Shown here: positions 7,395 to 19,974 of the stretch, in pieces
Numbering within the stretch: position 1 is the first letter of the stretch
Layout: the number at the start of each line of letters is the position of its first letter
IMG/VR virus record: IMGVR_UViG_3300036985_004434
Coordinates: 1-28,870 of that record
Reading direction: 5' to 3' (one strand)
Length of the DNA: 28,870 nt
From: a virus
Notes under the pieces: model-generated
The model's input: the letters and a program-made list of their open reading frames with translations, nothing else
Told to the model about the DNA's origin: nothing
Database searches by the model: none
Made by a program: the position numbers and the translations under genes

Positions 7395-7419
7395 AATGTG
7401 AAAAATGTTTTTATATTTG
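7390..7419 (+). promoter_or_regulatory. Promoter of small RNA (ATTG-N18-TATATTTG)
   Basis: ATTG at 7390-7393, an 18-nt spacer and TATATTTG at 7412-7419, followed by CACT. The same TATATTTGCACT string occurs at the promoter of the 23737 gene. No ORF lies between this promoter and the terminator at 7470-7498. Confidence 0.7.
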
Positions 7420-7424
7420 CACTC

Positions 7425-7498
7425 GATTGTTGGATGTGATTAATCCAAGTTCTTCATGTGATTAAAACTGCCCAGTAGTAATATTGGGCTTTTTTTTT
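7425..7498 (+). ncRNA. Small RNA with duplicated ATGTGATTAA motif
   Basis: The stretch is bounded by a promoter and an intrinsic terminator and has no coding frame, so it should make an RNA of about 74 nt. Hairpin 1 pairs TTGGAT (7430-7435) with ATCCAA (7443-7448) around the loop GTGATTA. The motif ATGTGATTAA occurs at 7434-7443 and again at 7456-7465. The terminator hairpin follows. Extended by one base each, the two motif copies match 11 nt of the reverse complement of the start region of the leftward gene at 1585-1770. A trans-acting antisense role is inferred; the exact 5' end is estimated from the -7 box. Confidence 0.6.
7470..7498 (+). terminator. Intrinsic terminator of the small RNA / replication operon
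   Basis: GCCCAG (7470-7475) pairs with TTGGGC (7484-7489) with an 8-nt loop, followed by nine T. The GC-rich stem and long U-run make this a strong intrinsic terminator. It separates the replication operon and small RNA from the virion operon. Confidence 0.88.
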
Positions 7499-7512
7499 GT
7501 TTATTTAAATAG

Positions 7513-9679: not shown

Positions 9680-12600
9680 ATGCCAGATTTTAATGAATTG
9701 GTAAAGAATCTATATACTTCAAAAGATAGAGAACTTACACAGGAAAAGTTAGATTACATAAACAAGACTTACACTGGCAAAGAAGAAGATTTTGTCAAGA
9801 ATTTTTATGCCACTGTTGGAGAAGAATTGCCTCAAGAAAAATTAGATTATATTTCTAAAACTTATTTGATAAAGAAAACTCCTGCTGTTCCATCGTTTTC
9901 GACAGATATATCAAACACGAATACATTACCTGTAATGAAAGATTCTCCTTTGCAGGCAAATGTAGATAAAGTTGTTAAAGAACCTGTTGCACCTGCTATG
10001 CCAAAAGCATTTAGTATGCCTAAAGAAAAGACAGTAGCAGATAAAGACCCAATAGGTAGAACTAATTTATATAAAAGCACTGTTGATAATATAACAAAAA
10101 GAATTTCTAACAACCTTTTAATTGCAGATGAATTAGGGAAAAAAGGTGATGGTCAAGGTATGCAGAACGTAATGTCGCAAATAAACCAAGACCAAAAGAA
10201 AATAGAGTCATTAAATAAAGGCATAGATGCTCAACGTGTTATAGCAGAAGACATGGGCTACAACACTAAAGGAGAAAGTTTGTTAAGAGGTGTTAAGAGT
10301 ACGCTTGCCTACTTCCTTACAGCTCCAGAAGGTTACGATGAATCAATATCAGCCATAGAAAGAAGTTTTTATGGTATGGTTGGCATTGACACTGGTAAGA
10401 TGACAAAAGATATTATTGATTGGAAAGCTAAGACAGAAAAAGAATTAGGAAAGCCTATTGGAGTAGAAGAAATGAGGTTAAGCGATGATTTAGCTGTTAT
10501 TGGAAGAAAAATATTAGACCAAACAAGTAAAGAAAAAAGCATAGCTAATTTAGGTTCTAAGTATGGCGGAGACGTAATTAAACTTGTAAAAAGTGGAGAT
10601 GTTGGAGAGATTGTAAGTCAAGGAGTAAATTCATTTTTAGAAAATGCACCTACATCTTTAGCTTTTTTAAATCCATATTCAGCAGCAGGAGTAGTTGGTG
10701 GAATGATGAACCAAGAAATTACACAAGCTAAAAGCGAAGGTAAGGAAATTGGCGCACAAGTAGTAGCTGCTGGAGCAATAAAAGCAGCATTGGAATTTGC
10801 TACTGAGAATATGATGGGTGGAGGTAAAGTTGTAAAAGATTTAGTGGCATCAATAGGAAAGGAAGCAGCAGAAAAAGTTGTTAAGGAATCTATTGAAAAA
10901 ATGGTCAAAGAAGGTTTCCTTAAAAAATATGGTAAAGCTATTAAAGAAGAAATATTAGGAGAAGTTACTAATCAAATAGGTAGTAATGCTGTTGATATTT
11001 ATATGAACGGCAAAAAAGACGTTAAACTTAGTGACGGTATTAGCGATGCTGCTTTTGCCGCAATATTTTCAAGTGGGATACAAACAGCACCAGTATTATT
11101 AGCACAGAAGTATGTAGATAAAAAAGCGATAGCAGCTTCTCAAGAAAAGAAAACACAAGCAGCAAAATTAATGGAAAGTGCTGTATCTCAACCAACTATA
11201 ACAGCACAAGATGCCATAGAAGAAAAAGCACAAAAACTAGAAGCAGAGGCTAATAAAGAAATTGACAGCCATGTTGAAACGGCTAAAAAAGCAACAGACG
11301 AAGATTTATCAAAAATAGATAATTTAGATACTTCAATTGACGAAATAAGTGCAAGTATCAACGAAAATTCTGACCCAGAAGTAATTGCAATACTTGAGGA
11401 AAAAAAGCAAGAACTTGAAAAAGAGCGTACAAGCACAATAAAAGAAATAGAAAAAAGACCAACACTAAATACCAAATTCTATCAGGGTGTTGATTTTAAA
11501 GCACAAACAGGATTGCCTAATGGTGACTACACTGAAGAACAAGTAAAGGCGGCAAGAGAAAACAAATTAAAAGAAGCAGGCGTACCGCCATTAGAAATAG
11601 AAAAAATAAATGCAGAACAAGAAGTTATACCAGCAACTGAAACCCCTGCTGCACCAATTAGCGGTGTTAGTGGTGAAGTACAGGAACTTGGTGATGTAGA
11701 AGAAGTAGCAGCCAAACTACAAAAAAGTATTGACAAAATTAACGAACAAAGAGATTCTGAAATAAGAACAGCAACAGGTAAAGTTATTTATACCGATAAT
11801 CCAACGGAAGCGGAAAAATCGCAAAGGGTTAAAGATAAGGTACAAGAAATTAATGATAGATATAATGCTATTATAGAACGTGAAAAAGAAAAACAAGCCA
11901 AAGAAACTACTAAATCAATAGCAGAGCAAGAAGTAACTAAAAAGACAACAGAGGTTACCCCTAAAGAAGGTGACAGCGTTATTGTAAAATCTCGTTTTGG
12001 TCGTGATGAAAAGTTGGTATTTAATAAAGGAGAGTGGAAAGTACAATTTGGTAAAGATGCATTTAGTGATATTGGTAAAGCTGCTCAACAAGAGGCTCAA
12101 GATGCGTTTAATGAAAAGAATGCACCTGTTGCTGAGGTTAAGGAACAAGCTCCTGTAGTTGAAAATGTACCTGTAGAAAAAACCACAAGTGTGTATGTAG
12201 CTCCTTTTTACGATGCTATGGTAAAAACCACAGAAGAAGCTAATGACGTAGAAAAATCTCCAGCATATAAGAAGTATATAGAAACTATAAATTCAGTAGC
12301 TGAAGCACTTGGAATAAAAATAAAATCATTAGCAACTAATATTGGCGCATACACAAACGATGATGGTGTTAAGGTGCGAGAGGTGTCAACTAAAGTTGAA
12401 TTAGAGACCACAAATATAGACGAAGCTACTGAGTTTGCTGTTTTGATGGGAGCACTTGCTCCTGAGGTTCAAGAATCTACAATAGCGGCACAGGGATTGT
12501 CTAAGGAAGATTTAGGAACAAAAAAACATACTGGAAATTTAATAAAAGTAAAGGTAGATAACCTAGAAGAGGCTATAGCTATTGCAAAAGAAATAGGCTT

Positions 12601-15600
12601 AGACCATACTATTAATTTAAAAGAAAATACTATTGATTTTATAGCTTTTAATTATTTTAGTAAAAACGCTAAAGAATTATTTAAAAGAAATTTAGGTAGA
12701 TTTGCAATAAAAATAAAAGAAAAAGGAATAAATTATGAAACAAAATCAAAACCAATTGAATCCAGATTCATCCAATCAGGAGCAGACCCAAAAAGCGATT
12801 TCAGAAGAAAAGATGTCCTCGAAAGAATGGCTGGATTACTCGAACGAGCTAATGGAGATAATGGGAGCGACATGGGACTTCTCGGACGCAGGAAAATGCT
12901 TCGTAATGCCATACAGGAAGCCACCAGAAGAAACAACGAATTCATAAGACAGCAAGAACTTGCTAGCGAAAGAAAAGAATATGGCAAGCTTAGAGCAAAA
13001 CAAATAGAACTAGAAAAAAAGGGAGAAAGATTATCAGACGAAGAGGTTAAGAGATTTACCGAACTTCTTAATATTCTTATTCCTTCTACTCAAGAAACTG
13101 TTAGAAACGCATCAGAAGACTACGAAGAAGCAAGAAAAGAACTTGAAAAAGTTGCAGCTAAAGTAATAGGAGACTTAGGTTTTTTATCTACCTTTGGAAT
13201 AAAAAGAGCCGAAAGAGCTGCTACTAAGATACTTAGATGGTATAAAGGTAAGGCACAATGGCTTGGTGATGGTGCTAGAACAAACCTAATTGCTTACAGC
13301 GAGAAGGATGTAATGGTTCTTTATAAAAAACTACAAGCACAGTACAAGGGCGGTATAATAAGAACCGAAAAAGATGATACTGGATTAGGATACCCTAAAA
13401 GACTTCTTGAAGTAAGAGCTTCAAATGGTAAAATCGCAGAGTTTCAGGTAATGACACCTGAAGGTTATTTAGCCAAGGATGGTGTTAATGGTTTTCCAGA
13501 GGCGCAAATGGATTTTGCTGCTAAAGAGTTATCTAAAATACAAAAAAGATTAGGTTGGTTAATACCAGATGGCGTTGGGCATTATTTCTACGAGATAGAA
13601 AGAGATTTTAATGTTCCTACGGATTTAAGAGAAAGGGCTAAAGCTATTAGTTTAAAATACTACGATGCGTTCCTTAATCCAGATTCAAAGTATACTGAAA
13701 AAGAATTTTTAGATGAGATATCTCAGTTTAAGAAAGATGTTGACGCTGCTGACAAGACAAATTGGGATAAGGGTAACAATGGAATATCTCCAGTAACTGT
13801 TAATGACTTTATAGAAGATACAAATAATCAGTACGAACCAATTTCGGTTTCAGACACTAGTCACGATACCTTTACCAAGGACAATGCCATAGACTACGAA
13901 GAAGATGAAAAGGAAGGCGATAACGGACGTTCTTATACTTACTTAGCATCGGTAACTGTAGAGTTAGTAGATGACGTTAGTGGCGATACAATAGGAACAA
14001 TATCTAAGTTAAAAAGCGAAGATGGCGAAATAACTTGGAATGCCGAGGATACAGATGGCAATGAAGTAATTGAAAATGCTGGAAGTAAAAACGCTGCTCA
14101 ACAGGCTCTTGTAGATAATTATAACAAGCAGAAGCTAAAGGAGTTTAATAAGGAGAAGGCTAGAGCCATTAAGGAAAGAACTAAGGAAAGAATTAAGGAA
14201 GCTGAGAAAGCTGCAAAAGCTAAAGAAAAAGCTGCAAAGGATGCTGAGAAAGCAAAGCCAGTACAAACAGAAAAAGAAAAGGCTAAAGAGAAAGCCAAAG
14301 AAGCTTTAAGAGCTAAGGCTGCTAAAATTAATGCTGACGTTATTAGTGCTGCTCAAAAAGTTCAACAGGCTTTAGAGGCAACAGGGATAACTGTAGAAGT
14401 AATTGATAACGACCAAGATTTTCAAGATAAACTTGACGCTGAAGGAGTTAAGAGAGGTAGTGCATCGGAGGCAACTGGTGTGTTTATATCTAAGTCAGGT
14501 AAAATATTTATCAATGCAAGTAAGGTTGATGCTAAGTGGGGCAGTGTGGATGTATGGCACGAGGGAATTCACCCTGTCATTAATATAATAAGGAACACAA
14601 ACCCCAAGTTATACAAATCAATAATAGACGGACTAAACGAGCTAGTTGCTAGCAATCCTGAGATAGCTGCTGTTGTTGAGTGGGCACAAAGTAATTACGA
14701 GGGAGAAAATACTTTAGAGGACGAAACTATAACTGAGACCATAGCAAGAATAGCAAATGGCAATATAGATTTATCAAAGATACCTACATCGTTAAAAGAT
14801 AAAATAATAGATTTTATTAATGGAATTGCTAAGTCTTTAGGGCTGAAGCCTATACTAAAAGGTTCTAATATTGCTACGTTTAAGAAGCTAGCAAAAGAAA
14901 TATCTGCTGCACTTACAGAAGGTAAAAGTATTAGTGGTATAGTTGGCGAGGAAAACGTAAAAGATTTTGGCACTCCTATTGGAACTCCATCTCAATTAAA
15001 AAAGTCTTCCAAAACAACAAAAAAAGAAGAAAGTAAAGTAGTTGTCAATAAAAAAGGACATAAATTATCATTTGTTAAAGAATCTGACATAATAGATATG
15101 GAAGTATTAATAAATGATATAGTGGCAAAAAACCAAAAAGTATGGTTTTGGGTTGCAGACCAGTTGGGAAGAGGATTTTATTTTGACAAAGTAACCAAGA
15201 AAAAACACTATTTAGATGCAGGTGCTAGTTTTGCTTTAGACCCAGAAAATAGAGATAAAAATATTATATGGGCTACTGGAAAAGGCGAAAAATCAATAAA
15301 TAGATATATATCAGAGTCTGATTATATTTTTATTATAAGTGGTTCTCCTTTAATAAGTAAACTATTTAATAAAAGAGTTTTTGAATTATTAGAAAAAAGA
15401 TTTAAAAATTACAATGACTTCAAAAAAGGAGTATTAGAAAATTCTAAAACAAAAGATATTATTGAACTAGTAAATTCATTTGATTCTTGGAAATCATTTA
15501 AAGAATCTCCAAAAAGAAAAGAATTGTTATTAGCTATTGACGCTCAAAAAGATAAGAATACTCCTTTAAAACTTTTCTTAGAAAAAAATAATGCTTTTTT

Positions 15601-18094
15601 AGATTATAATGCTTTAAGAGATGGTTTTTATGCAGATAATGATTTTAAGCTAAATGATATAATGTTAGTTTTAAAGCCAACTGGTTTTGGTGGTCAATCT
15701 AATCATTCTACTTATTCTAATAACGTATTGGGCGATGTTGTTGGTGTTCCTGATAGAAAAATAAACGCTTACGATTTAATGACTAGCGAATTTAAGAAGG
15801 AAAACGATTTAAAGCCTTCTGCTCAAAGTCAAGTAGTAGCTCCATTTGGAATAGGGGTAAAAAATATTGTATCACCTCAGTTCTCACAAGGAAAAAGAGG
15901 CGATATTACTGCTAACGAAAACTTAATAAACGGATTCTATTCACCTTTAGAAAAAACAATCAATGATTCTAAGCAAGATAAAATGCCTGCAAAACAATGG
16001 ATAGAAAAGTTTGCTAAAGGCGAAGAAGCTAAGTGGACAGGATTAGCTGATTGGTTAAGTTCTCAAACAGGTTCTGTTTCTAAAGCAGATATTCAAAACT
16101 ACCTAGATGACAATAGAATTGAAGTTACTGAAGTAGTTAAAAGTAGTGAAATTTCTGACGAAGAAATTGACACTTTATTGGAAGATGAAGTAGGACAGGA
16201 CATGACAAGGAATGAAGCAAGAGAATTTCTTGAAAACGAGGATAGACAAGATGATACAAAATTCTCTTCATACCAATTAGAAGGAGAAAAAGAAAATTAT
16301 AAAGAGGTATTGGTTACTTTGCCGAGAACTACGGGTAAGTTTGATATAATTGATAGTAAAGGGGATGTTTATAATACAGTTGATACAAAAGAAGAAGCTG
16401 ATAGATTAGCAGCTATGGTATCAAAAACGCAAGGTTCAAAATTTTCCGTAAAAGAACAAGTTAAAAAAGACTTCAAATCTACCCACTATGACGAAGCCAA
16501 CATACTTGTTCATTTAAGAATGAATACTCGTATAGATTCAAATGGTAATAAAGTATTATTTATTGAAGAAGTACAAAGCGATTGGGGGCAAACAGGAAAA
16601 AGAATAGGATTTGAAAAGCCTGAAGATACTCAAGCAATAAAAGAATTAGAAAATGAAAAACAAAAGGTTTTAGATAGTTCTAAATCTTATCAATTATTAA
16701 ACAAAAATACTGAAGGAAACTTATCTGTTGAAGTATTTGATGCTATTCAACAAATAGCAACAAGAAATATTGATAATCAGTATTCTACAGAAGAATCTCG
16801 AAAAGAAAGATTCTTAAAAGATATTGAAAACACATTGTCTTATTGGGAAAACTATAAATATGTTGTACCTAATATGAATCAAAAAGAGTTGTCAAATTTT
16901 TATGATGTTTATATTAAAGAATTAGAAAATAATAGTAAAAAAATATCTGGGTATTCACCATCTTACCAACTTGCTTCTGTAGAAAATAAATTAGAAGATA
17001 TAAATAAAAAGATTTTTGAATTTTCTGCAAAAGAAGGTGTAAAAAAAGCACCATTTGTAATGGATACAAATGCTTGGACTAAACTTGGCTTAAAGGTAGC
17101 TTTAAAAGAAGCAGTAAGACAAGGAGTTAAAAAGATTGCATGGACTACTGGTGAGCAACAAAATGATAGATATGATTTAAGGAAGCAGGTTGATAAGATT
17201 GAAATAATAAAACGAGAAGGTGCAGATAGTTACAGAGCAAAAACATATAAAAATGGTGATATATTAGAAGACCAAGACTACATTGCTTTTGACCAATTAG
17301 AAGGAATGTTTGGCAAAGAAATAGCTAAAAAAGTACAAGAAGGGGAAAGTATTTTTGAAGGAGAAGGATTAGCGGTTGGTGGTAAAGGAATGAAAGGCTT
17401 TTATGGTTCACCTTCTGAAAAAAGTTTAGGCATAGTAGGTAATGTAGCTAAGAGTTTGTTTAAGCAAGAACCGAAGACGGTGGAGATTGAAGGTAAAAAA
17501 CAATCAGACCCAAATAATATTGGCATAGTGAGAGTAAGCGGAACAGATACTTGGCAATTAATGGATGGGAATAAAAATCCAATATTTGACACTTACAAAG
17601 AAGCTAACGATGCGAGAAAAGAGTTAAAAACAAATACTACCACTCAAAACTCAATAGACATAACACCAGAGTTAAAAGCACAAGTTCGAGAAGGTTTATC
17701 TCAGTTCTCAAAAGGAGGCAGAGATGTTCAGCCTGTTGTTGATATGATTAAAGAATCTCAGAACGAAGGTGAGTTAACTGACAAAGAAATAGCTGAAACT
17801 TTAGAGGAGTATTTCCCTAAAGAAGATATTCAAGCGGCATTTGATTTAATCAACAACCCAACTGAAAATGAATCGCCTACGGCAACCACAGAGCAAGCAG
17901 AATTTACTCCAAATGCTAAGGATATAAAAGCATTTGAAAAGATACTAGGAACTACAAGCGGTGCTATTAGAAACAAGAATATAGCTGAAGCTGTCAAAGT
18001 AAATCCTAAAATACAAGAGATTATGGATAACTTTGAAGACTTAAAGAAACAATTAATGGCTAGCGTAGAACTAACAACTGACTGTTCTTGGTAA
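9680..18094 (+). CDS. Giant large polyvalent protein, 2804 aa (internal virion / ejected)
   Basis: The N-terminus carries two copies of a short repeat (LTQEKLDYINKTY and LPQEKLDYISKTY). Next comes a Gly/Ala-rich hydrophobic part near 310-480 that may contact membrane, then long charged coiled-coil linkers with ALP-rich spacers. Around 1160-1320 is an alpha/beta domain (GYPKRLLEVR, AEFQVMTPEGYL). HEGIH at 1627-1631, with E1686 as a possible third ligand, is a zinc-peptidase motif. Later blocks are known from phage large polyvalent proteins: VWFWVADQLGRG, WTGLADWL, SVSKADIQNYL (from 2134), EVQSDWGQ (2298-2304) and WTTGEQQNDRYDL (from 2488). Such proteins are packaged and delivered with the DNA. 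Individual enzymatic roles besides the HExxH are not resolved. Confidence 0.82.
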   Translation: MPDFNELVKNLYTSKDRELTQEKLDYINKTYTGKEEDFVKNFYATVGEELPQEKLDYISKTYLIKKTPAVPSFSTDISNTNTLPVMKDSPLQANVDKVVKEPVAPAMPKAFSMPKEKTVADKDPIGRTNLYKSTVDNITKRISNNLLIADELGKKGDGQGMQNVMSQINQDQKKIESLNKGIDAQRVIAEDMGYNTKGESLLRGVKSTLAYFLTAPEGYDESISAIERSFYGMVGIDTGKMTKDIIDWKAKTEKELGKPIGVEEMRLSDDLAVIGRKILDQTSKEKSIANLGSKYGGDVIKLVKSGDVGEIVSQGVNSFLENAPTSLAFLNPYSAAGVVGGMMNQEITQAKSEGKEIGAQVVAAGAIKAALEFATENMMGGGKVVKDLVASIGKEAAEKVVKESIEKMVKEGFLKKYGKAIKEEILGEVTNQIGSNAVDIYMNGKKDVKLSDGISDAAFAAIFSSGIQTAPVLLAQKYVDKKAIAASQEKKTQAAKLMESAVSQPTITAQDAIEEKAQKLEAEANKEIDSHVETAKKATDEDLSKIDNLDTSIDEISASINENSDPEVIAILEEKKQELEKERTSTIKEIEKRPTLNTKFYQGVDFKAQTGLPNGDYTEEQVKAARENKLKEAGVPPLEIEKINAEQEVIPATETPAAPISGVSGEVQELGDVEEVAAKLQKSIDKINEQRDSEIRTATGKVIYTDNPTEAEKSQRVKDKVQEINDRYNAIIEREKEKQAKETTKSIAEQEVTKKTTEVTPKEGDSVIVKSRFGRDEKLVFNKGEWKVQFGKDAFSDIGKAAQQEAQDAFNEKNAPVAEVKEQAPVVENVPVEKTTSVYVAPFYDAMVKTTEEANDVEKSPAYKKYIETINSVAEALGIKIKSLATNIGAYTNDDGVKVREVSTKVELETTNIDEATEFAVLMGALAPEVQESTIAAQGLSKEDLGTKKHTGNLIKVKVDNLEEAIAIAKEIGLDHTINLKENTIDFIAFNYFSKNAKELFKRNLGRFAIKIKEKGINYETKSKPIESRFIQSGADPKSDFRRKDVLERMAGLLERANGDNGSDMGLLGRRKMLRNAIQEATRRNNEFIRQQELASERKEYGKLRAKQIELEKKGERLSDEEVKRFTELLNILIPSTQETVRNASEDYEEARKELEKVAAKVIGDLGFLSTFGIKRAERAATKILRWYKGKAQWLGDGARTNLIAYSEKDVMVLYKKLQAQYKGGIIRTEKDDTGLGYPKRLLEVRASNGKIAEFQVMTPEGYLAKDGVNGFPEAQMDFAAKELSKIQKRLGWLIPDGVGHYFYEIERDFNVPTDLRERAKAISLKYYDAFLNPDSKYTEKEFLDEISQFKKDVDAADKTNWDKGNNGISPVTVNDFIEDTNNQYEPISVSDTSHDTFTKDNAIDYEEDEKEGDNGRSYTYLASVTVELVDDVSGDTIGTISKLKSEDGEITWNAEDTDGNEVIENAGSKNAAQQALVDNYNKQKLKEFNKEKARAIKERTKERIKEAEKAAKAKEKAAKDAEKAKPVQTEKEKAKEKAKEALRAKAAKINADVISAAQKVQQALEATGITVEVIDNDQDFQDKLDAEGVKRGSASEATGVFISKSGKIFINASKVDAKWGSVDVWHEGIHPVINIIRNTNPKLYKSIIDGLNELVASNPEIAAVVEWAQSNYEGENTLEDETITETIARIANGNIDLSKIPTSLKDKIIDFINGIAKSLGLKPILKGSNIATFKKLAKEISAALTEGKSISGIVGEENVKDFGTPIGTPSQLKKSSKTTKKEESKVVVNKKGHKLSFVKESDIIDMEVLINDIVAKNQKVWFWVADQLGRGFYFDKVTKKKHYLDAGASFALDPENRDKNIIWATGKGEKSINRYISESDYIFIISGSPLISKLFNKRVFELLEKRFKNYNDFKKGVLENSKTKDIIELVNSFDSWKSFKESPKRKELLLAIDAQKDKNTPLKLFLEKNNAFLDYNALRDGFYADNDFKLNDIMLVLKPTGFGGQSNHSTYSNNVLGDVVGVPDRKINAYDLMTSEFKKENDLKPSAQSQVVAPFGIGVKNIVSPQFSQGKRGDITANENLINGFYSPLEKTINDSKQDKMPAKQWIEKFAKGEEAKWTGLADWLSSQTGSVSKADIQNYLDDNRIEVTEVVKSSEISDEEIDTLLEDEVGQDMTRNEAREFLENEDRQDDTKFSSYQLEGEKENYKEVLVTLPRTTGKFDIIDSKGDVYNTVDTKEEADRLAAMVSKTQGSKFSVKEQVKKDFKSTHYDEANILVHLRMNTRIDSNGNKVLFIEEVQSDWGQTGKRIGFEKPEDTQAIKELENEKQKVLDSSKSYQLLNKNTEGNLSVEVFDAIQQIATRNIDNQYSTEESRKERFLKDIENTLSYWENYKYVVPNMNQKELSNFYDVYIKELENNSKKISGYSPSYQLASVENKLEDINKKIFEFSAKEGVKKAPFVMDTNAWTKLGLKVALKEAVRQGVKKIAWTTGEQQNDRYDLRKQVDKIEIIKREGADSYRAKTYKNGDILEDQDYIAFDQLEGMFGKEIAKKVQEGESIFEGEGLAVGGKGMKGFYGSPSEKSLGIVGNVAKSLFKQEPKTVEIEGKKQSDPNNIGIVRVSGTDTWQLMDGNKNPIFDTYKEANDARKELKTNTTTQNSIDITPELKAQVREGLSQFSKGGRDVQPVVDMIKESQNEGELTDKEIAETLEEYFPKEDIQAAFDLINNPTENESPTATTEQAEFTPNAKDIKAFEKILGTTSGAIRNKNIAEAVKVNPKIQEIMDNFEDLKKQLMASVELTTDCSW
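12735..12947 (+). CDS. Candidate overlapping gene, 70 aa, nested out of frame
   Basis: A +1-frame ORF lies wholly inside the giant gene. It has AAGGA at 12723-12727, seven bases before its ATG, a spacing suited to ribosome binding and unusual in this genome. The product reads like a folded protein, not a shadow: MSSKEWLDYSNELMEIMG (residues 27-44), then ATWDFSDAGKCFVMPYRKPP. Over the same bases the giant protein's frame uses unusually many CGN, CTC and GGN codons (a Gly/Arg-rich run), as if the +1 frame constrained it. It could be a true overprinted gene or a gene remnant fused into the large ORF. No family is named. Confidence 0.5.
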   Translation: MKQNQNQLNPDSSNQEQTQKAISEEKMSSKEWLDYSNELMEIMGATWDFSDAGKCFVMPYRKPPEETTNS

Positions 18095-18126: not shown

Positions 18127-18621
18127 ATGAACAAATACTACGAAATATCAGACGAGGCAATGGAGATTATCGCTCCATTAGCTGAAATAGAATTAGAACA
18201 ATCAACCTTCTACAATCAATTGGCTGTAGTGGCTAATAAATTAGGCTTTTTGATGGCACAAAAATATTTTAACCAAGAAGCTATAGAAGAGAAAGAACAC
18301 TTCATGGGCTGGGTTGATTATATCTCTGGAAGGGGCAATGCTTATACTATTCCTGCTATTGGAATAACCAAGTGCAAGAGCAAGAGCTTGTACGAGCTAA
18401 TAGAAATGGCTTTAGAGAAAGAAATTGAGGTTAGTAAGTTATATGCAGAGCAAGGTATGAAGTTATTTAATGTAGACCAACTTGCATACCAGAAGTTAAT
18501 TGGTTACTTGCAAATACAAAACGAAGCTGTAATATTCTACACCGATTTGTGTGCAGTGTTCGAGAATTTAGACAAAGCAGGAGAGCTAACAGCAGAGCAT
18601 TCGTACTTTGAAATAGGATAA
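18127..18621 (+). CDS. Ferritin-like di-iron protein, 164 aa
   Basis: A four-helix-bundle pattern of ferritin length. Likely metal ligands follow the spacing of bacterial ferritins: E22 or E24 in helix A (IELEQSTFYNQLA), E55 and H58 in helix B (EEKEHF), E98 or E101 in helix C (LEKEIEVSKLY), and E133 in helix D (QNEAVIFYTDL). The Gln of the usual QxxE motif is shifted, so a complete ferroxidase site is not assured. It could store iron, bind Dps-like, or be a virion component. It interrupts the row of giant virion genes and has its own promoter, which suggests an accessory insertion. Confidence 0.82.
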   Translation: MNKYYEISDEAMEIIAPLAEIELEQSTFYNQLAVVANKLGFLMAQKYFNQEAIEEKEHFMGWVDYISGRGNAYTIPAIGITKCKSKSLYELIEMALEKEIEVSKLYAEQGMKLFNVDQLAYQKLIGYLQIQNEAVIFYTDLCAVFENLDKAGELTAEHSYFEIG

Positions 18622-18629
18622 AAAAAATT

Positions 18630-18705
18630 AAGTCAAGGGTGTGTTGTTAATGGCAGCAGTCTGCGAAAGCAGAGGATGAAGTTCGATTCTTTGCCCCTAT
18701 GACTT
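18630..18705 (+). ncRNA. tRNA-like cloverleaf without anticodon loop
   Basis: A four-arm fold can be drawn. The acceptor is AAGTCA (630-635 of 18 kb) with TGACTT plus GGG with CCC across a small internal bulge. A T-G linker follows. The D-arm is TGTTG/CAGCA with GG in the loop. The anticodon position holds a 5-bp stem TCTGC/GCAGA closed by the tetraloop GAAA, so no anticodon exists. The T-arm has the canonical loop TTCGATT on a weak 5-bp stem with two G·U pairs. It cannot decode, so it is either a decayed tRNA or a tRNA mimic. It lies 8 nt after the ferritin-like gene and before a T-run. Confidence 0.4.
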
Positions 18706-18719
18706 TTATATTTTTTTTA

Positions 18720-18750
18720 TTTGTTTGTTTCAAATAAAGCAGTACATTTG
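18720..18750 (+). promoter_or_regulatory. Promoter of kissing-loop RNA (TTTG-N19-TACATTTG)
   Basis: TTTG at 18720-18723, exactly 19 nt, and TACATTTG at 18743-18750: a full match to the Bacteroidota consensus. The next ORF is 450 nt away, with a terminator in between, so the direct product is non-coding. Confidence 0.82.
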
Positions 18751-18753
18751 TTG

Positions 18754-18870
18754 CGTTGTAATGCGGATTCAACGATTTTCATTTGTATATTTTCATTTTT
18801 ATTAATAATATAACCGCCTTTAGATAGGCATTAAAGAAAACCTAAACATCCGCATTGTTTGGGTTTTTTT
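18754..18870 (+). ncRNA. Kissing-loop RNA, about 115 nt
   Basis: Hairpin 1 pairs CGTTG (18754-18758) with CAACG (18770-18774) around an 11-nt loop containing ATGCGGA (18761-18767). A U/A-rich linker with a small GCCT/AGGC hairpin (18817-18828) follows. Then comes a 12-bp terminator hairpin whose whole 7-nt loop, TCCGCAT (18849-18855), is the exact complement of ATGCGGA. With flanking bases the complementarity is 9 nt. The transcript begins near 18755 from a consensus promoter. Loop-loop pairing is the obvious tertiary contact; the biological role is unknown. Confidence 0.65.
18837..18870 (+). terminator. Terminator hairpin with complementary loop
   Basis: A 12-bp stem (18837-18848 with 18856-18867, one T·G), a 7-nt loop and a seven-T run. 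An outer 7-nt inverted repeat (18825-18831 TAGGCAT, 18871-18877 ATGCCTA) can extend the stem, giving a long, nearly symmetrical hairpin that could act in both directions. Confidence 0.82.
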
Positions 18871-18960
18871 ATGCCTACTGTTGTATAGATATGTACAGTA
18901 CAAAAAACAAATCTCACATACATTTAAACAATAAATAATTGGTGAATACTGTTGATGTTT

Positions 18961-19169
18961 TAAGGGTTCAAAGATACAGATAGTGATAACCATATAAATA
19001 AGCCAATTATTTCTAAAAGTTCAATTAAAAATAAAAGCGGAGAGGTCTGTATTTTATACCTATAAAAATAGGTCGCTAGGATTGGGCAGTTTAACTACTG
19101 TTATTGTGTTTACTGTTAAAAGGAAACGGCAATAAGAAATACAGGTTATTCACTAGGTAAAAACCCTTA
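18961..19169 (+). ncRNA. Structured leader upstream of HNH gene
   Basis: Nested complementary segments are visible: TAAGGGTT (18961-18968) with AACCCTTA (19162-19169); GATAACC (18985-18991) with GGTTATT (19144-19150, one G·T); CTGTATTT (19047-19054) with AAATACAG (19137-19144). Inside the last are a 6-bp hairpin with loop AAAA (19058-19063 with 19068-19073) and TTTAAC/GTTAAA (19090-19095 with 19115-19120). The second and third helices share one base at 19144. No convincing ORF lies in 18871-19200. It may be a leader that controls the HNH message or part of a mobile RNA element. Confidence 0.4.
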
Positions 19170-19200
19170 CTATGTTTAAAATATAAATAATAATATAATT

Positions 19201-19974
19201 ATGACTTACCTAGAAAAAAGAGAAAACAAAGAAAAATTACTACAAAAAAGAAAAGAATATAATAAAGAATATCGGTTAAATAATAAAGAAAAAATTGCTG
19301 AAAAAGCAAAAGAATATTATATAAATAATAAAGAACAAATTAAAGAAAAGACAAAAGAATATCAAAAAAAATATCATTTAGAAAATAAAAAAGAGAAAAA
19401 AATATACGATAAAAAAAATAAAAAAGAATATTATTTAAAAAACAAAGAAAAGATAAAAGAATGGAGAGAAAAAAATAAAGAATCTTTAAAAGAATATTGT
19501 TTAAAAAACAAAGAAAAAACAAAAGAATATCAAAAACAGTATCGTTTAGATAATAAACAACAGCTTGGCGAAAAGAAAAAAATATACAATAGAATTAATA
19601 ATCAACATATTACCAAGTATCAAAATAATAGAAAAAAAATAGACCCTTTATATAAATTAAGGTGTAGTATTAGCTCATTAATTTCAAATTCAATAAAAAG
19701 ACAAGGCTATAAAAAAGATTCAAAAACTTGTCAAATATTGGGATGTAATTATGAAGAATTTAAAAAACACTTGGAACGTCAATTTACTTTTGGTATGAAT
19801 TGGGAAAATCAAGGTGAGTGGCATCTCGACCATGTTTACCCAGTTTCGCTAGCAAAGGATGAACAAGAGCTAATAAAATTAAACCACTATACTAACTTTC
19901 AACCTTTATGGGCAATTGACAACTTATTGAAAGGGAATAAGGTAATTGCAAATACCCAGATAAAACTAGTATAA
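19201..19974 (+). CDS. HNH homing-type endonuclease, 257 aa
   Basis: Residues 1-130 are repeats of about 12-25 residues rich in Lys, Glu, Tyr and Asn (KEYYLKNKEKIKEW style), probably a long basic helix that binds DNA. Residues 150-250 form the nuclease part: a core with SKTCQILGCNYEEFKKHLE, then WHLDH (207-211) carrying the catalytic His, and NHYTNFQPLW (228-237) with IDNLLKGNK (239-247), which complete the HNH metal site. It resembles free-standing phage homing endonucleases. No RuvC domain is present. It lies between two virion genes and after a structured untranslated region, a typical insertion site for such selfish genes. Confidence 0.85.
   Translation: MTYLEKRENKEKLLQKRKEYNKEYRLNNKEKIAEKAKEYYINNKEQIKEKTKEYQKKYHLENKKEKKIYDKKNKKEYYLKNKEKIKEWREKNKESLKEYCLKNKEKTKEYQKQYRLDNKQQLGEKKKIYNRINNQHITKYQNNRKKIDPLYKLRCSISSLISNSIKRQGYKKDSKTCQILGCNYEEFKKHLERQFTFGMNWENQGEWHLDHVYPVSLAKDEQELIKLNHYTNFQPLWAIDNLLKGNKVIANTQIKLV

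Follow-up and report, generated by a model that had tools for sequence, protein, structure and literature searches.

A predicted small RNA of Bacteroidota phages whose terminator loop complements its own 5' hairpin loop

A promoter, two complementary hairpin loops and a terminator in one intergenic region

The window, the whole stretch of DNA analyzed, is a 28,870-nt (28.9-kb) virus record, IMG/VR IMGVR_UViG_3300036985_004434, from a bacteriophage of Bacteroidota. It carries Bacteroidota-type promoters, and relatives of its DNA helicase and terminase lie in Flavobacterium, Cellulophaga and Maribacter phages. Downstream of a gene for a 164-aa protein with a ferritin-like domain by Pfam, a promoter of the sigma-ABfr type is found on the plus strand: the -33 element TTTG at 18720-18723, a 19-nt spacer and the -7 element TACATTTG at 18743-18750, with transcription expected to start near 18755. 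These elements match the Bacteroidota consensus TTTG / TAnnTTTG (PMC7366714). The promoter is followed by a 5' hairpin, H1, at 18754-18774 (+), whose arms, 18754-18760 and 18768-18774, pair with one U.U mismatch and enclose the loop AUGCGGA (18761-18767). A linker containing the motif TTTGTATATTT (18782-18792) and a middle hairpin, GCCU-UUAGAU-AGGC (18816-18829), lead to a strong intrinsic terminator at 18835-18869, with arms 18835-18848 and 18856-18869, and a U-run at 18864-18870 that marks the expected 3' end. The whole 7-nt loop of the terminator, UCCGCAU (18849-18855), is the exact complement of the H1 loop, and complementarity reaches 9 nt with the flanking bases.

An earlier note had described this arrangement from the sequence alone, and its observation is confirmed, with every element that it named present in its place. 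The region folds better than all 200 dinucleotide shuffles (z -5.1), although this is mostly due to the terminator. No ORF is contained between promoter and terminator; only incidental TTG-start or minus-strand frames of up to 57 aa overlap. It is the only such loop pair in the window with a loop of 6 nt or more. A search against Rfam 15 at the gathering threshold returned only a tRNA at 1793-1865, and at permissive thresholds the matches within 18500-19250 all fell far below the cut-off.

A tRNA-like element lies between the ferritin-like gene and the promoter, at 18630-18705 (+). It has a AAGTCAAGG...CCCTATGACTT closing stem, a D-like arm and a T-arm with loop TTCGATT, but CTGC-GAAA-GCAG in place of the anticodon arm. 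It is conserved in all five phages of the window group, including the one without the kissing RNA; the version in the related contig L002 scores 20.2 bits against Rfam tRNA (cut-off 29), while the window and L005 versions do not score at all. A second promoter-terminator unit in the window, at 7412-7500 (+) just before the 7518 gene (TATATTTG, terminator loop GTAA), has no kissing loops and is conserved in the phage records G003 and G005.

Covariation of the two loops in related phages

Do the loops change together? Four viral contigs, L002 to L005, encode the upstream ferritin-like protein. L002 and L003 (same RNA sequence) and L004 carry the RNA after it, while L005 has the flanking sequence without the RNA. 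In L004, which was found through the neighboring protein rather than through the loops, the H1 loop is GUUAGGA on a perfect 7-bp stem and the terminator loop is UCCUAAC, each exactly 7 nt in the fold. On the alignment of the close relatives the kissing helix is 100% paired, with three of seven pairs changed on both sides; the terminator stem keeps 14 of 14 pairs, three with double changes, and H1 has one such pair. Sliding the partners by 1-3 columns removes nearly all of this signal. The condition that the earlier note had set for its own refutation, one loop changing without the other, was therefore not observed. Between the window and L004 the loops are the most divergent part, differing at 6/14 positions against 9/63 in linker plus middle hairpin (Fisher p=0.024), while the middle hairpin GCCUUUAGAUAGGC is identical in the window, L002 and L004. 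The linker motif TTTGTATATTT is also present in L002 and L004.

Relatives of the terminase gave further, more distant phage records. A covariance model built without the kissing pairs detected a copy in records G304 and G306 at another genomic place: TTTG-N19-TATATTTG, the linker motif TTTGTATATTT, H1 loop AAUAGAG with an 8-bp stem available, and terminator loop CUCUAUU, both loops exactly 7 nt. This is independent support, since the search did not select for complementarity. A scan for terminators whose loop complements an upstream hairpin loop then identified three more pairs: CGUGCGG/CCGCACG in record G305 (copy 1), GUAGAGA/UCUCUAC in the same record (copy 2; 10-bp H1, 13-bp terminator) and GUAGGAG/CUCCUAC in record G309 (20-bp terminator). 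The middle hairpin is not present in the distant copies. In total there are six distinct loop pairs in nine copies, eight phage records and four genomic places, with two pairs of records carrying identical RNAs. As three of the six pairs came from a scan that selects for complementarity, the unbiased weight rests on L004 and G304/G306. All six pairs are Watson-Crick at all seven positions, with 2-3 pair types per position, and every true case has a TAnnTTTG promoter 8-24 nt upstream of the first kissing strand, whereas the stray matches have none. Computed duplex energies, about -5 to -12 kcal/mol before loop costs, are strongest for the cognate pair in every row of the cross table, and the two RNAs of G305 do not cross-pair; by these computed energies alone the six pairs are mutually orthogonal.

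Such pairs exceed chance. Of 327 terminator-like hairpins in the related phages (register variants and identical copies counted), 15 have a complementary upstream hairpin plus promoter, representing nine RNA copies, six of them distinct, against 0.4 when upstream regions are permuted between terminators and 0 in twelve locally shuffled genome sets. In 740 kb of two Bacteroidota chromosomes, 253 terminators gave none with a promoter. The same scan of Flavobacterium elemoF, Maribacter Panino, MW202828, Cellulophaga phi18:3, FCL-2 and 14 distant IMG/VR records, some of them scanned only in part, gave no convincing case. A covariance model run over 296 Bacteroidota genomes returned three weak matches, driven by terminators or partial resemblance, none with complementary loops on inspection, and an exact-pattern scan of genome contigs with the conserved middle element gave two hits, both within what looks like coding sequence and without the context of the RNA. 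A search of each RNA's own genome for targets found no complementary stretch of 12 nt or more for three of the six RNAs and only A/T-rich or chance-length matches for the others.

Genomic places and neighboring genes

The RNA sits after the ferritin-like gene and the tRNA-like element in the window group; after a relative of window gene 570-947 and a second small RNA in G304/G306/G305; upstream of an HNH gene in the divergent region of G305; and at the end of the G309 contig after a short gene. A conserved putative small RNA, RNA-A, with loop GTTCTCATAAT (L046:1372-1460 (+); L060:13746-13850 (+)), lies directly upstream of the kissing RNA in G304/G306 and G305, and its loops are not complementary. 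Homology between places is visible in the 17-nt tail GGGTTTTTTTATGCCCA shared by L002 and G305 copy 1, although these lie at different places. The RNA thus behaves as a movable, self-contained transcription unit, like a 'moron' gene without a protein. It is cleanly absent from L005/G006, and since G006, a 68-kb record with terminase, portal and the same neighboring genes, lacks it, it is dispensable.

Other parts of these regions also vary. The HNH/endonuclease VII-like ORF at 19201-19974 (+) of the window is absent at this place in L002, L004 and L005 and is probably a recent homing insertion; its leader, 19030-19150, looks structured. The giant polyvalent protein (window 9680-18094; L002:952-4968; L004:247-4968; L005:232-4968) has a conserved C-terminal tail (...TTEQAEF.P..KDI...ELKKQLM..VELT.DCSW), while the domains before it are exchanged between relatives. 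In G304/G305 the ferritin-like gene is followed by a terminator with a long conserved loop, CATGCCT.TCA...CGATGCACACTTTGG (L052:2105-2165; L054:2010-2065).

Interpretation and comparison with other RNAs

We consider it more likely than not, with moderate confidence, that 18743-18870 is the gene of a stand-alone phage small RNA of about 115-120 nt, with its own host-type promoter and intrinsic terminator, belonging to a family found so far only in one clade of Bacteroidota phages, and that natural selection keeps its 5' hairpin loop and terminator loop complementary over 7 nt. In the most likely mechanism the two loops would kiss within one molecule, clamp the 5' hairpin onto the 3' terminator and mask both loops, giving a compact and probably long-lived RNA that opens only for its target or for another copy of itself, acting in trans or on itself. 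That the loops change quickly but always together, each pairing best with its own partner, fits a self-recognition or orthogonality pressure. The sequence analysis establishes the promoter and terminator sequences, the complementarity and compensatory change that reveal selection on the loop pair, the changing genomic position and the absence from some relatives; transcription, pairing in the cell, intramolecular rather than intermolecular contact, action in trans, the target and any function in infection are inferences from it. The fit is uneven between copies. In the window 81 nt lie between the kissing strands, ample for an intramolecular contact, but in G309 only 41 nt do, of which about 15 nt of linker must span a long helix, so that intramolecular kissing would be tight. 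In G305 copy 1 part of the kissing strand lies in the H1 stem, and the minimum-energy fold pairs the two segments as one long helix instead of two hairpins.

Does the RNA instead control the gene that follows it? The interpretation in the earlier note is partly supported: a stand-alone small RNA with a selected kissing interaction is favored, but attenuation of the HNH gene, which it had offered as one possible role beside regulation and protection of the 3' end, is not supported and we reject it, because the HNH ORF is missing downstream in L002/L003 and L004 and the RNA occupies four different places. Attenuation of whichever gene follows is not excluded and is the main rival, though a tentative one. 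In this view the same promoter would make either a terminated short RNA or a read-through mRNA, the balance being set by the kiss between H1 and terminator, in cis or by the short RNA acting in trans on the nascent leader. A start codon follows the U-run closely in three of six cases, G304 (HTH-like ORF), G305 copy 2 (HNH ORF) and G309, and a prophage precedent exists in IsrK of Salmonella (PMC4825925). However, the window, L002, L004 and G305 copy 1 have no gene within about 300 nt of the terminator, the downstream gene differs at nearly every place, and no conserved regulated gene lies directly downstream.

An intermolecular device, in which H1 of one RNA kisses the terminator loop of the next to form dimers or rings, as phi29 packaging RNA does with its two loops, seems unlikely. 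Two mutually complementary loops in one molecule allow head-to-tail assembly, each RNA pairs best with its own kind, and the short G309 linker is easier to explain between molecules than within one; but absence from G006 argues against an essential packaging part, G305 holds two versions that do not cross-pair, and no Rfam family matches. An ordinary terminator with a chance 7-nt match upstream is very unlikely: terminators are common and dominate the energy of the region, but this reading is contradicted by compensatory change in six loop pairs and by controls of 0-0.4 against nine copies. A more speculative and unlikely possibility is a protein-free self-recognition device, in which the terminated RNA would recognize nascent copies or sister RNAs through its own loop pair, limiting itself by dosage and marking phage identity (superinfection or copy sensing). 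Diversifying pressure would then explain why the loops are the fastest-changing part yet stay complementary and do not cross-pair, even between two copies in one genome.

Kissing loops, phage small RNAs and pairing terminator loops are each known, but we found no paper, in the literature library searched, describing a small RNA whose 5' loop complements its own terminator loop, and this combination, fixed by covariation, appears new. It defines a previously undescribed family of predicted phage non-coding RNAs by compensatory change in a long-range loop-loop contact, in phages of a major bacterial phylum whose phage RNAs are little studied. It lends itself to a clean genetic test (single-loop mutants against the compensatory double mutant) and, if the loops are specificity determinants, would provide a natural collection of orthogonal 7-nt kissing pairs.

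How does it compare with described systems? IsrK, from the Salmonella prophage Gifsy-1, is likewise a short terminated phage RNA with phage genes behind its terminator; it acts in trans on its own read-through mRNA (PMC4825925) in a different host, and we did not find complementarity between its 5' hairpin and terminator loops described. The c4 antisense RNA of P1/P7 and the CI RNA of P4 are phage RNAs whose partner sequence lies in the same transcript and whose specificity is in loops, but they are processed from a leader and control immunity, for which there is no evidence here. The packaging RNA of phi29 has two mutually complementary loops in one phage RNA; the RNA described here matches no packaging RNA family in Rfam, is not next to the packaging genes and is dispensable in this clade. 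LhrC of Listeria is a two-hairpin small RNA with a pyrimidine-rich terminator loop that takes part in base pairing (PMC4132741), but its loops target an mRNA Shine-Dalgarno region and are alike rather than complementary. We considered a C-rich anti-Shine-Dalgarno role and set it aside because Bacteroidota mRNAs naturally lack Shine-Dalgarno sequences (PMC6847099). In the kissing antisense control of ColE1 by RNAI and RNAII, the loops are 7 nt long. There, short hairpin loops kiss, the sequence of the pair sets specificity, and changed pairs become compatible or orthogonal (PMC9458437); here kissing and its specificity are inferred from the sequences and from computed duplex energies. The ColE1 loops, however, are on two RNAs read from opposite strands of one locus and are complementary by necessity, whereas here both lie on one strand between one promoter and one terminator and must co-evolve.
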